This document shows, one piece after another, positions 7,359 through 18,900 of a stretch of DNA of 64,000 bases; positions within the stretch are counted from its first letter, which is position 1; each line of letters starts with the position of its first letter. The DNA lies in the NCBI RefSeq assembly GCF_015291745.1, contig NZ_CP030059.1, forward strand, positions 6,661,501 through 6,725,500, given 5' to 3'. The DNA comes from Bradyrhizobium sp. CCBAU 53351 (lineage in GTDB: Bacteria; Pseudomonadota; Alphaproteobacteria; Rhizobiales; Xanthobacteraceae). A program made the translations under genes and the position numbers. The notes under the pieces are model-generated. The model did not search any database, had not been told where the DNA came from, and was given only the letters and a program-made list of their open reading frames with translations.

Positions 7359-7392
7359 ATATTTGATAATTGTTATGGACCATATCAAATAT
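7359..7392. promoter_or_regulatory. Nested palindromic operator between marR-type gene and livH
   Basis: The exact inverted repeat ATATTTGATA (7359-7368) / TATCAAATAT (7383-7392) has a 14-base spacer. Overlapping it is GTTATGGACCATATC (7372-7386), which fits a GTTAT-N5-ATAAC-like pattern seen at two other promoters in the window. The position between divergent regulator and transporter genes is that of an autoregulated MarR operator. Confidence 0.75.
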
Positions 7393-7476
7393 CGCATGCG
7401 TTTTTCAATGGCTGTGAGCGGACCGTCCACCACAATCGGGGGGACCGGTCCGAATCTTTAGGGGGAGCGTCCGGTC

Positions 7477-8517
7477 TTGAATACCACCATCATGCTGTTC
7501 CTGGTGCAGGACGGCATTACCAATGGCGCGATCTATGCGCTGCTCGGCCTGGCGCTGGTGCTGGTGTTCGCCGTCACCCGCGTCATCCTCATTCCCCAGG
7601 GCGAATTCGTCACCTATGGCGCGCTGACCTATGCCTCGCTGGCCGCGGGCCAGATGCCGGGGACGGCCAAGCTCGCGCTGGCGCTCGGCGTCGGCGCCTT
7701 CGCCTTCGACCTGTTCGAAGGCCGCAAGGCGCTGCACGGACGACTGGTCGGGCGCAGCCTGATCACCAACGTCGTGCTGCCTGCCATCGTGCTGGCGCTC
7801 ACCGTGTACTTCGCCGCGCAGAAGCCGCCGGTCGCCATCTGCATCGCGCTGTCGCTTGTGATCGTGGCGATGATCGGCCTCTATCTCTATCGCATCGCGT
7901 TTCAGCCGCTGGCGCACACCTCGGTGCTGGTGCTGCTGATCGCCTCCGTCGGCGTCCACCTCGCGCTGCAGGGCCTCGGCCTGCTGTTCTTTGGCGCCGA
8001 AGGCCAGCGCGGACCGGCCGTGCTGTCCGGCGCCTTCACCGCCGGCGCGATGCGCTTCACCGGCCAGAGCCTCACCGTCTACGGCATCACCATCGCCTTC
8101 ATCGTCGGCCTCTGGCTGTTCTTCGGCCTGACGCTCTACGGCAAGGCGCTGCGCGCGACCGCCGTGAACCGGCTCGGGGCGCGGCTCGCGGGCATCCGCA
8201 CCACGTTGTCGGGGCAGATCGCCTTCCTGCTGGCCTCCGTGATCGGCGCGCTGTCGGGCATCATGATCGTGCCGATCACGACGCTCTATTACGACTCCGG
8301 CTTCCTGATCGGCCTGAAAGGCTTCGTCGCCGCGATCATCGGAGGCCTCGTCAGCTACCCCCTCACCGCCGTCGCGGCGCTGGTGGTCGGCATCGTAGAG
8401 GCGTTCTCGTCCTTCTATGCCTCCAACTACAAGGAGGTGATCGTTTTCATGCTCTTGATCCCCGTGCTGCTGCTGCGATCGCTCGCCGCGCCCGCCGTCG
8501 AAGAAGAGAAGGACTGA
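7477..8517 (+). CDS. LIV-I-type ABC transporter permease (LivH family), phenylpropanoid locus
   Basis: This inner-membrane permease (346 aa) is the first gene of an ABC importer operon. The N-terminus FLVQDGITNGAIYALLGLALVLVFAVTRV is characteristic of LivH, followed by some eight hydrophobic helices and the cytoplasmic coupling loop TLYGKALRATAVNRLGARLAGI near residue 225. The start is TTG 7477, with GGGGGAG at 7461-7467; an ATG at 7492 is the alternative. It follows a palindromic operator and lies opposite a MarR gene. The next gene begins 7 bases after its stop. In the similar R. palustris locus such a transporter serves hydroxycinnamates, so an aromatic acid substrate is inferred. Confidence 0.9.
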   Translation: MNTTIMLFLVQDGITNGAIYALLGLALVLVFAVTRVILIPQGEFVTYGALTYASLAAGQMPGTAKLALALGVGAFAFDLFEGRKALHGRLVGRSLITNVVLPAIVLALTVYFAAQKPPVAICIALSLVIVAMIGLYLYRIAFQPLAHTSVLVLLIASVGVHLALQGLGLLFFGAEGQRGPAVLSGAFTAGAMRFTGQSLTVYGITIAFIVGLWLFFGLTLYGKALRATAVNRLGARLAGIRTTLSGQIAFLLASVIGALSGIMIVPITTLYYDSGFLIGLKGFVAAIIGGLVSYPLTAVAALVVGIVEAFSSFYASNYKEVIVFMLLIPVLLLRSLAAPAVEEEKD

Positions 8518-8524
8518 GGCCAAG

Positions 8525-10294
8525 ATGCAGAGCCGGCTTCCCATCATCCTCTTCGCAGCTGTCATGGCGGCGATCCCGTTCGTCCCGGGCATGCCTCCGT
8601 TCTGGATCGTGCTGCTCGACAATATCGGCCTTGCGGCGCTGGTCGCGATGGGCCTCGTGCTGCTGACCGGCGTCGGCGGCCTGACCTCGTTCGGCCAAGC
8701 CGCCTTCGTCGGCTTCGGCGCCTACACCACCGCGGTGCTGTCGACGGCCTATGGCCTGTCGCCCTGGCTGACGCTGCCGCTGTCGCTGGCAGTCAGCGGA
8801 TCATTGGCGGTGCTGCTCGGCCTGATCACCGTCCGCCTCTCCGGCCATTATCTGCCGCTCGGCACGCTCGCCTGGGGGCTCGGCCTGTTCTACCTGTTCA
8901 GCAAGCTGGAGTTTCTCGGCCGCAACGACGGCATCTCGGCGATCCCGCCGCTGTCGATCGGCACGTTCAAGATGCTGTCGCCCGGCTCGATCTATTACGC
9001 GATCTGGGTCGCCGTGATCCTCTCGGCCCTGCTGACGATGAACCTGCTGGACTCCCGCACCGGCCGCGCCATCCGCGCGCTGCGCCGCGGCCATGTCGCG
9101 GCCGAGGCATTCGGCGTGCACACGCCGCGTGCCAAGCTGCTGGTGTTCATCCATGCCGCCGTGCTCGCCGGCCTCTCGGGGTGGCTCTACGCGCATCTCC
9201 AGCGCGCGGTGAACCCGACGCCGTTCGGTGCGCAGGCGGGCATCGAATATCTCTTCATCGCGGTGGTCGGCGGCGCCGGCTATGTCTGGGGCGGCGTGCT
9301 GGGCGCGGCCATCGTCGTGGTCTTGAAAGAAGTGCTGCAGAGCTATCTGCCGCTGATCCTGCCCGGCTCCGGCCAGGTCGAGACCATCGTGTTCGGCATC
9401 ATGCTGGTCGCGCTGCTGCAGCTTGCACCCGGCGGCCTCTGGCCCTGGCTGATGTCCTTCCTGCCGGAGCGGACGAGCGGCAAGAAGCCCGACACCTCCC
9501 TGAAGCTCGAGCAGCGCACCCGCGCACCCGGCGAGAGCAGCATCCTGCTCCAGGTCGACAAGGCGCGAAAACAGTTCGGCGGCGTGGTCGCGGTCAACAA
9601 CGTCTCCTTCGACGTCCAGGCCCGCGAGATCGTCGCGCTGATCGGCCCGAACGGCGCCGGCAAGAGCACCACCTTCAACCTGATCACCGGCGTGCTGTCG
9701 GCGACGTCAGGCTCGGTCTCGGTGCTCGGCAAGAAGGTCGACAAGGCGCCGCCGCAGGAGATCGTCAAGCTCGGCATCTCCAGGACCTTCCAGCATGTGA
9801 AGCTGGTTCCCGACATGACCGTATTGGAGAACGTCGCGATCGGCGCGCATCTGCGCGGCCATTCCGGGCCGATCTCCTCGATGCTGCGGCTCGATCGCGC
9901 CGACGAGGCAAAGCTGCTTGCGGAGGCCGCCCGTCAGATCGAGCGCGTCGGCCTCACCGAGCAGATGCACCAGCTCGCGGGCTCGCTCTCGCTGGGACAA
10001 CAACGCATCGTCGAGATCGCCCGCGCGCTCTGCGTCGATCCGATGCTGCTGCTGCTCGACGAGCCCGCCGCGGGCCTGCGCCACATGGAGAAGCAGCGGC
10101 TAGCTGCGCTGCTTCGCGAGCTGCGCGACGGCGGCATGAGCGTGCTCTTGGTCGAGCACGACATGGGCTTCGTCATGAACCTCGCCGACCGCATCGTGGT
10201 GCTCGATTTCGGCACCAAGATCGCGGAAGGCACCCCCGCCACGATCAAGACCAATCCCGAAGTGATCAAGGCCTATCTCGGAGTGGCGGCATGA
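8525..10294 (+). CDS. Fused LivM permease - LivG ATPase of ABC importer
   Basis: This is a single 589-aa chain combining two subunits. Residues 1 to about 320 are a LivM-type permease (LTGVGGLTSFGQAAFVGFGAYT near 50; the coupling loop DSRTGRAIRALRRGHVAAEAFGVH near 180). Residues about 340-589 are an ABC ATPase with Walker A GPNGAGKST near 377, the Q-loop ISRTFQHVKL, the signature LSLGQQ near 490, Walker B LLLLDEPAAGL and the LivG/F-type H-loop VEHDM. There is no stop or frameshift between the halves. The LivF gene starts at an ATGA overlap with its stop. Such LivM-LivG fusions occur in Bradyrhizobium, so this is a genuine fused gene rather than an assembly artefact. Confidence 0.92.
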   Translation: MQSRLPIILFAAVMAAIPFVPGMPPFWIVLLDNIGLAALVAMGLVLLTGVGGLTSFGQAAFVGFGAYTTAVLSTAYGLSPWLTLPLSLAVSGSLAVLLGLITVRLSGHYLPLGTLAWGLGLFYLFSKLEFLGRNDGISAIPPLSIGTFKMLSPGSIYYAIWVAVILSALLTMNLLDSRTGRAIRALRRGHVAAEAFGVHTPRAKLLVFIHAAVLAGLSGWLYAHLQRAVNPTPFGAQAGIEYLFIAVVGGAGYVWGGVLGAAIVVVLKEVLQSYLPLILPGSGQVETIVFGIMLVALLQLAPGGLWPWLMSFLPERTSGKKPDTSLKLEQRTRAPGESSILLQVDKARKQFGGVVAVNNVSFDVQAREIVALIGPNGAGKSTTFNLITGVLSATSGSVSVLGKKVDKAPPQEIVKLGISRTFQHVKLVPDMTVLENVAIGAHLRGHSGPISSMLRLDRADEAKLLAEAARQIERVGLTEQMHQLAGSLSLGQQRIVEIARALCVDPMLLLLDEPAAGLRHMEKQRLAALLRELRDGGMSVLLVEHDMGFVMNLADRIVVLDFGTKIAEGTPATIKTNPEVIKAYLGVAA

Positions 10295-18667: not shown

Positions 18668-18679
18668 CAACATCATCCA

Positions 18680-18834
18680 TCGTCGTCCCTGCCTGATGCG
18701 CAATTGCGCACGGGGCGCAGGAAGCCATACCGCGTGATTTATCGAGTGCGGGCGGTCGGCGTACCGAAGGACGAGCCTTCGCCAAACTCCTCCCTGGGGT
18801 TATGAGTCCCTGCGTGCGTGCGCAGGGACGACAT
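18680..18834. repeat. Dispersed repeat (GTCGTCCCTGC ... GCAGGGACGAC type)
   Basis: The outer arms GTCGTCCCTGC (18683) and GCAGGGACGAC (18823) are exact complements. The interior carries GCGCAATTGCGCAC and TTCGCCAAACTCCTCCC-TGGGGTTATGAGTCC. Related pieces are at 31935-32000 and 62255-62425. It occupies most of the gap before the crotonase promoter. Confidence 0.7.
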
Positions 18835-18885
18835 AGTGTGCAGAGCAGCATTCTGCGGTCCGTGACCTTGACTCCCCCAAAATTC

Positions 18886-18900
18886 GTTATACAACATAAC
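18886..18900 (+). promoter_or_regulatory. GTTAT-N5-ATAAC operator of the crotonase/CoA-ligase operon
   Basis: GTTATACAACATAAC is an inverted repeat (arms GTTAT/ATAAC) 20 bases before the crotonase ATG. A possible -35 TTGACT (18868-18873) with TACAAC at 18890-18895 would put the palindrome over the -10 box, as expected for a repressor site. It resembles the sites at 7372-7386 and 14744-14758. Confidence 0.65.

Follow-up and report, generated by a model that had tools for sequence, protein, structure and literature searches.

Predicted CouR operators at genes for p-coumarate uptake, side-chain removal and ring hydroxylation in Bradyrhizobium

The repressor CouR of Rhodopseudomonas palustris (RPA1794; PDB 6C28) responds to p-coumaroyl-coenzyme A (CoA), and its described targets are couAB and both aromatic-acid transporters (PMC3610893, PMC10458429; here and below, content attributed to PMC papers is that of their titles, abstracts and passages). 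Both this regulator and some of the genes under it have thus been described before. We analyzed a 64,000-nucleotide stretch of the Bradyrhizobium sp. CCBAU 53351 genome (NZ_CP030059.1, positions 6,661,501 to 6,725,500 of the forward strand; hereafter the window), which contains the Bradyrhizobium p-coumarate locus, with a couR-like MarR-family gene and palindromes of the form GTTAT-N5-ATAAC. Sequence comparisons make it likely that these palindromes are CouR operators controlling uptake, side-chain removal, ring hydroxylation and ring opening, and that the set includes an unlinked amidohydrolase gene and unlinked pcaHG.

The MarR protein encoded at 6779-7300 matches CouR 6c28 over its full length (E 3.1e-68; 68% identity by tblastn), and the likeness includes the DNA-recognition region, where the segment NQTEIA.TLGILRPNFVAMLD is almost identical in the two proteins. 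Judged by sequence, the gene is the ortholog of Rhodopseudomonas CouR, a p-coumaroyl-CoA-responsive repressor. Its neighbors are also those expected of a Rhodopseudomonas-type CouR, namely couAB and aromatic-acid transporters of the ABC and TRAP types. Two relatives whose CouR proteins are 93.6% (G228) and 88.4% (G086) identical to 6C28 have the sites at couA, between pobA and tarP, and between couR and livH; with these relatives, the nearest to 6C28, Bradyrhizobium shares the palindromic operator at couA. The pobA gene itself, encoding 4-hydroxybenzoate 3-monooxygenase, is normally under a regulator that senses 4-hydroxybenzoate, the substrate of PobA. The window pobA encodes the same enzyme as PobR-controlled pobA but differs in carrying the predicted operator of a protein that senses an intermediate further up the pathway, while the second pobA in the genome has no exact site. 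More sites are predicted here than the targets described for R. palustris CouR; the word pobA does not occur in PMC3610893. Among the literature matches listed (titles, abstracts and passages, with the primary R. palustris CouR papers outside this set), none was found that ties pobA, pcaHG or the amidohydrolase to CouR, nor any earlier account of a genus-wide operator, which does not establish absence from print.

Two more distant systems share the general design. CouR of Rhodococcus jostii RHA1 is likewise a MarR repressor released by p-coumaroyl-CoA, with an inverted repeat that has a 5-bp spacer and one box placed between divergent promoters (PMC4737184). That box, cATTGA-N5-TCAATg, overlaps the -35 element (PMC4737184), and the Bradyrhizobium sites do not fit it: they have the same architecture in other letters. 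The identity of R. jostii CouR to R. palustris CouR is given as ~25% (PMC4737184) or 36% (PMC9594313), and in the passages of PMC4737184 only cou operons are named as targets. CouO, an amidohydrolase-superfamily enzyme, acts in the R. jostii pathway, in a step of the beta-keto-thioester cleavage kind (PMC4737184). HcaR of Agrobacterium fabrum is also a MarR repressor, and the pathway it controls is a CoA-dependent beta-oxidative deacetylation with a CoA ligase, a hydratase, a dehydrogenase and a keto-ester-cleaving enzyme; A. fabrum differs in placing the vanillate step under a second repressor, the GntR-type Atu1419 (PMC7797058). The words pobA and pcaHG are absent from the main text of PMC7797058.

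The three palindromes noticed in a preliminary description of the window are present where it placed them (operators 1b, 2 and 3 in Table 1). Its statement that no further pair with this spacing occurs in the window fell, as a fourth site, operator 1a, had been overlooked; operators 1a and 1b form a tandem pair, one base apart, in the couR-livH region. Sites were scored, at a threshold of 13, with a weight matrix built from the genus's sites at couA, pcaH, the amidohydrolase and livH, with pobA left out; the training is partly circular for the couA and livH sites and not circular for pobA. The four sites are the top four in the window (27.1, 23.8, 22.1 and 16.9), the last two values being those of 1a and 1b, of which 1a is the stronger. 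In sixty random windows of equal dinucleotide frequencies, hits above 13 averaged 0.07 per window, and no hit exceeded 17.

The preliminary description had named a random rate of occurrence across the genome as one of the results that would speak against it. The exact form RTTATN5ATAAY, picked after the sites were seen, is found 6 times in the 8.34-Mb genome, against 0 for the reversed control, and three of these matches fall within this 12-kb locus. Across 80 CouR loci (records under Bradyrhizobium except L056, Frankia), there were 134 exact matches vs 0 in the control, and 265 vs 9 with one mismatch allowed. Five of the six exact genome sites lie 5' of coumarate-pathway genes, three in the window and two at loci unlinked to it. 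One of the latter is directly 5' of a PF04909 amidohydrolase gene whose product is 76% identical to P0049, a protein that NCBI names 4-hydroxyphenyl-beta-ketoacyl-CoA hydrolase; by superfamily and by the name of this close relative, the enzyme is a putative CouO-type hydrolase. The other precedes pcaH-pcaG, encoding protocatechuate 3,4-dioxygenase (TIGR02422, 381 bits; TIGR02423, 270 bits; both above cut-off). No aldehyde dehydrogenase was seen directly at an exact site.

Upstream regions in related Bradyrhizobium, whose comparison the preliminary description had recommended, have conserved sites at couR-livH, pobA and couA. The couR-livH tandem pair is kept in all 80 CouR loci, operator 1b having one mismatch in every one. 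For the other genes a sample of 60 genomes was used, each represented by its best copy, apart from G027, for which both couA copies were counted. All 51 genomes with a window-type pobA have the pobA site (45 exact, 6 with one mismatch): the best 30 loci are all exact, and a further 21 of 21 lie above threshold, the lowest at 20.3, with 15 exact. The remaining nine genomes have no window-type pobA or a fragment only. In the pobA alignment, all 30 rows of which carry an exact site, 12 of the 15 operator columns reach at least 1.8 bits and 30 of the 50 flank columns fall below 1, the flank columns nearest the operator being partly conserved as well. The amidohydrolase site is present in 58 of 58 genomes having the ortholog (30/30 and 28/28), and 37 of 38 couA copies have the couA site (29 of 30 loci, as an exact match, plus 8 of 8 further copies fetched); the single miss, L122, is one of the two G027 copies and has a damaged site (10.2), while the other copy, L475, is intact. 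At pcaH the site occurs in 46 of 53 genomes (29/30 and 17/23), the misses being G051 (L113), G053, G015, G048, G035, G032 and the partial G003; pcaH of this type is absent from seven of the 60.

Beyond the genus, the sites were compared with the occurrence of couR itself, which is found in 55 of 198 family genomes at E 1e-40. Eighty family genomes were taken, 48 with couR (seven couR-bearing Bradyrhizobium being omitted) and 32 without. When the pobA-free matrix was applied to the 350 bases 5' of the best pobA, with the window's own genome excluded, a site above 13 was observed in 36 of 47 couR-bearing genomes vs 1 of 21 without couR (Fisher p 1.7e-8, relatives being treated as independent), and in 9 of the 11 genera tested. 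The couR-less side comprises 21 of the 23 genomes with pobA, G070, G088 and second copies being left out. Letter-shuffled upstream stretches exceeded 13 in 5 of 1160 cases and 17 in none. The sole couR-less genome above 13, G083, reaches 13.7 with one mismatch; its stretch L338 (G083:C3:238001-258000) keeps the liv genes and pobA, couR was not found genome-wide and couA is not in the stretch. All nine family loci read that contain couA have the couA site. Exact sites exceed the reversed control in 45 of 48 couR-bearing and 15 of 32 couR-less genomes, with means of 5.02 vs 1.88 and 2.47 vs 1.94, respectively. The amidohydrolase is present in 42 of the 48 vs 5 of the 32, those five being 56-65% relatives.

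Several observations weigh against a regulon of this breadth. Related genomes share ancestry, and the tests were made without phylogeny correction. Eleven of the 47 couR-bearing genomes lack the pobA site, namely all eight of g40, both of g44, and G199; the g40 pobA copy is only 66-69% identical and lies outside the cou loci read (3 of 8). Scores of 13-17, such as those of L270 (13.2) and G083 (13.7), are weak because shuffles reach 13, and three of the 48 couR-bearing genomes (G108, G231, G247) have more reversed-control sites than pattern sites. Two promoters of the second pobA exceed the matrix threshold (14.6, ATTGTACAAGATAAT), through a different element. The sixth exact site in the genome, at G000:C1:1667893-1667907 (L002), scores 26.1 and is without an evident target gene, and is probably due to chance. 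Of the 29 family loci scored for the amidohydrolase site, 3 of which are from Bradyrhizobium, 16 have it, and the 13 without it include all ten of g26; coordinate comparison, which covered all but five of the twelve couR-bearing genomes lacking a locus, adds 7 further family genomes with the site. Outside Bradyrhizobium, the pcaH site is present in 3 of 26 family loci scored (a set that includes couR-less G083 and leaves out other family pcaH), all three from g40, and in 5 of 29 when three divergent Bradyrhizobium, two of which have it, are included. In the Rhodopseudomonas-like genus g28, all 8 genomes are without pcaH at E 1e-50, and 7 of the 8 have the pobA site. This differing distribution suggests a core consisting of couR-livH, couA and the pobA-tarP site, with the amidohydrolase and pcaHG joined to it in some lineages.

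Operator 2 lies between the divergent pobA and tarPQM genes, starting 66 bases from the pobA start and ending 183 from the tarP start. It most likely serves both, to judge from sequence, because g40 tarP has the site without pobA and pobA of L495 has it without tarPQM. It is unlikely that it serves tarPQM alone, with the adjoining pobA controlled by other means, although CouR controls tarPQM in R. palustris (PMC3610893) and the three g40 loci read (L335-L337) have the site 5' of tarP but do not contain pobA. In 48 of the 54 CouR loci where tarP is in reach, pobA is present too, the site being exact in 47 and having a mismatch in one, and the 6 without pobA in reach keep an exact site; L007 and L009 among these show pobA-start remnants, so that recent loss is possible. 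The other 26 of the 80 loci have neither tarP nor pobA complete within the fetched DNA. Against control of tarPQM alone, the G048 locus (L495) lacks tarPQM together with the DUF3237 gene, and its pobA and couA are divergent and have separate sites, the pobA site lying 74 bases 5' of the start; moreover, the distance from site to pobA start is confined to 57-83 bases in 21 further genus copies. A second palindrome-like element, TTAGATAACATGTTAATTAA, lies near the tarP start at 14873-14892, and also occurs in L007, L009, L046 and nearly so in L084; it may control the TRAP transporter separately.

It is very improbable that the palindromes belong to some other regulator, for example the LysR protein encoded at 11839-12723. 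The LysR gene is close to pobA and conserved, and MarR-type half-sites by themselves do not identify the binding protein; yet the LysR promoter has a TTGC-N7-GCAA box of its own (11817-11831), conserved in the 53 stretches aligned, all 80 CouR loci have the tandem pair in couR's own promoter region, and the presence of the pobA site tracks couR across the family. In G083, where no couR was found, lysR remains and the pobA site is weak. The TTGC-N7-GCAA box is part of the promoter of the LysR gene (ATG 11839), which is of the TTGACA type, and looks, by its sequence, like an element of LysR autoregulation; the TTG start at 11803 from the list of open reading frames (ORFs) is really the -35 box of this gene. 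A conserved match at 11821 (12.8) was excluded from the CouR sites because the conserved element there is the TTGC-N7-GCAA box in the lysR promoter. Control by PobR would lead one to expect an AraC- or IclR-type regulator gene beside pobA; the regulators recognized near pobA are the LysR protein and a helix-turn-helix (HTH)/WYL protein 11 kb away. No recognized gene lies between lysR and pobA (12724-13508), where ORF 12798-13364, 57-80% conserved and less so than its neighbors, may be spurious.

Chance, whereby AT-rich -10 regions resemble each other and the best ones were chosen, fits the loose pattern, which with up to two mismatches is noise both in the window (4 found vs 3.02 expected from shuffles) and genome-wide (585 matches vs 813 for the reversed pattern), as it fits the tighter form with one mismatch (16 places in the genome vs 20 for the reversed control), but it is contradicted by the exact matches in the genome and the CouR loci and by conservation of the sites close to start codons across scattered loci, so that its probability is close to nil and we regard it as refuted for the couA, pobA, amidohydrolase and couR-livH sites. 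Only strong matches are informative, since loose matching gives no excess over the shuffles and the reversed control. Among one-mismatch genome sites considered as targets, the contexts of eight were inspected and none was convincingly aromatic; the site at C2:571814 adjoins a small HTH gene and appears unrelated.

With the palindromes read as CouR operators, CouR dimers would, when p-coumarate is absent, occupy the couR-livH tandem and the sites at pobA-tarPQM, couAB-SDR, the amidohydrolase and pcaHG, repressing these genes by covering AT-rich promoter cores. In keeping with blocking of -10 regions, hexamers resembling TATAAT or TATACA occur within the operators. In operator 2 the TATAAT of the minus strand occupies 14749-14744, 66-71 bases 5' of the pobA start; scanning for sigma-70 promoters at pobA gave no hit, so the overlap of operator and promoter there is a prediction. 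p-Coumarate would enter via the ABC and TRAP systems and be converted by CouB to p-coumaroyl-CoA, the presumed ligand by analogy with R. palustris CouR, upon which CouR would release the DNA. A single early signal would thereby induce uptake, side-chain removal, ring hydroxylation and ring opening, and the enzymes would act in the order ligation, hydration, oxidation by the SDR enzyme, amidohydrolase cleavage to 4-hydroxybenzoate, PobA and PcaGH. The proposal in the preliminary description that one MarR protein governs transport, side-chain degradation and ring hydroxylation is, on the comparative evidence, the best reading. Its outline of three promoters stands and is widened by the probable service of operator 2 to tarPQM, by the tandem nature of the couR-livH site and by the two unlinked loci.

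A broader interpretation, to which we give even odds, is that one p-coumaroyl-CoA sensor commands everything from uptake to ring opening, including dedicated pobA and unlinked pcaHG, that the second copies of pobA and pcaH, which lack the exact operator, answer other signals, and that the side chain is lost by beta-oxidative deacetylation and not via 4-hydroxybenzaldehyde. The latter compound is an intermediate of the 'non-beta-oxidation' route named for R. palustris. Beta-oxidative deacetylation is implied by the SDR dehydrogenase and the 4-hydroxyphenyl-beta-ketoacyl-CoA hydrolase-like amidohydrolase, with no aldehyde dehydrogenase having been seen directly at an exact site, and this gives a regulatory argument on a side-chain route that is labelled non-beta-oxidation in R. 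palustris (PMC3610893). If CouR acts at these sites, the first CoA-thioester would switch on ring hydroxylation and cleavage in advance, instead of each step awaiting its own substrate. The regulon would offer a case of paralogs divided between regulators, and one of regulon change among genera, the pobA site being missing in g40 and g44 and the pcaHG site found mainly in Bradyrhizobium. It also predicts precisely, at genome scale, how a common phenolic from lignin and roots is handled by Bradyrhizobium, which is a major symbiont of soil and roots. The circuit may be of importance in the plant, since bacteroids of Bradyrhizobium from senescing nodules have measured protocatechuate 3,4-dioxygenase activity (PMC6320959). 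A further use of the operator set may lie in p-coumaroyl-CoA biosensors.

The second Bradyrhizobium pobA is 58% identical to the first and had an exact site in 0 of 21 examined. A ATNGTACAAGAYAAT-like element lies ~65 bases 5' of its start in many of the genomes fetched (L496-L515) and is probably the operator of another regulator. At G000:C1:1570334-1573781 the second pobA and second pcaH stand side by side. On the opposite side of the pcaHG operator (L006), an intradiol dioxygenase gene with a catechol-dioxygenase N-terminal domain (1574-2596) and a gene that is thiolase-like by eye (2606-3013) lie on the pcaHG strand.

Table 1. Predicted operators and genes of the p-coumarate locus (window coordinates).
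Feature	Position	Strand	Sequence or evidence
Operator 1a	7356..7370	+	GTTATATTTGATAAT; one mismatch to GTTATN5ATAAC
Operator 1b	7372..7386	+	GTTATGGACCATATC; one mismatch to GTTATN5ATAAC
Operator 2, between pobA and tarP	14744..14758	-	ATTATATCATATAAC as read on +; one mismatch
Operator 3	18886..18900	+	GTTATACAACATAAC; perfect match; 19 bases 5' of couA ATG
couR, MarR-family repressor	6779..7300	-	best PDB match 6c28 (CouR)
livH-type permease of aromatic-acid ABC transporter (CouPSTU-like)	7477..8517	+	PF02653; NCBIfam LivH match under cut-off
LivM permease-LivG ATPase fusion	8525..10294	+	LivG model at residues 339-586, under cut-off; permease part by position
livF-type ATPase	10291..11022	+	PF00005 in ORF 9181-11022; start MSALLSVADAHVAYG
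pobA, 4-hydroxybenzoate 3-monooxygenase	13509..14678	-	TIGR02360, 713 bits (cut-off 538.7)
tarP, TRAP solute-binding protein	14941..15957	+	PF03480; best PDB 7nqg, E 1.6e-122
tarQ (DctQ)	16170..16679	+	PF04290
tarM (DctM)	16682..18001	+	PF06808
DUF3237 gene adjoining tarPQM, start uncertain	18053..18667	+	PF11578
couA, enoyl-CoA hydratase	18920..19729	+	PRK08150, 422 bits (cut-off 232); best PDB 3hin, E 2.2e-127
couB, acyl-CoA ligase, start approximate	19747..21609	+	PRK12582, E 1.5e-222, 740 bits, slightly below cut-off 777; PF00501
SDR dehydrogenase	21635..22396	+	PF00106; 25 bases 3' of couB
couP/livJ-type solute-binding protein	22904..24055	+	PDB 3tx6, 4jb0, 3ukj, 3uk0, all E <1e-194

Several of the PDB entries matched by the genes in Table 1 (7nqg, 3hin, 3tx6, 4jb0 and 3ukj) we take to be R. 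palustris proteins, some with aromatic ligands. The start of tarP, MRKACLALLLAASVTPALAQ, resembles a signal peptide; ORF 14934-16157 was rejected as tarP, being in the wrong frame. The SDR dehydrogenase gene is presumably in one operon with couB. In most loci read, the DUF3237 gene sits between tarM and couA, and it is missing along with tarPQM in L495; it is perhaps part of the pathway.

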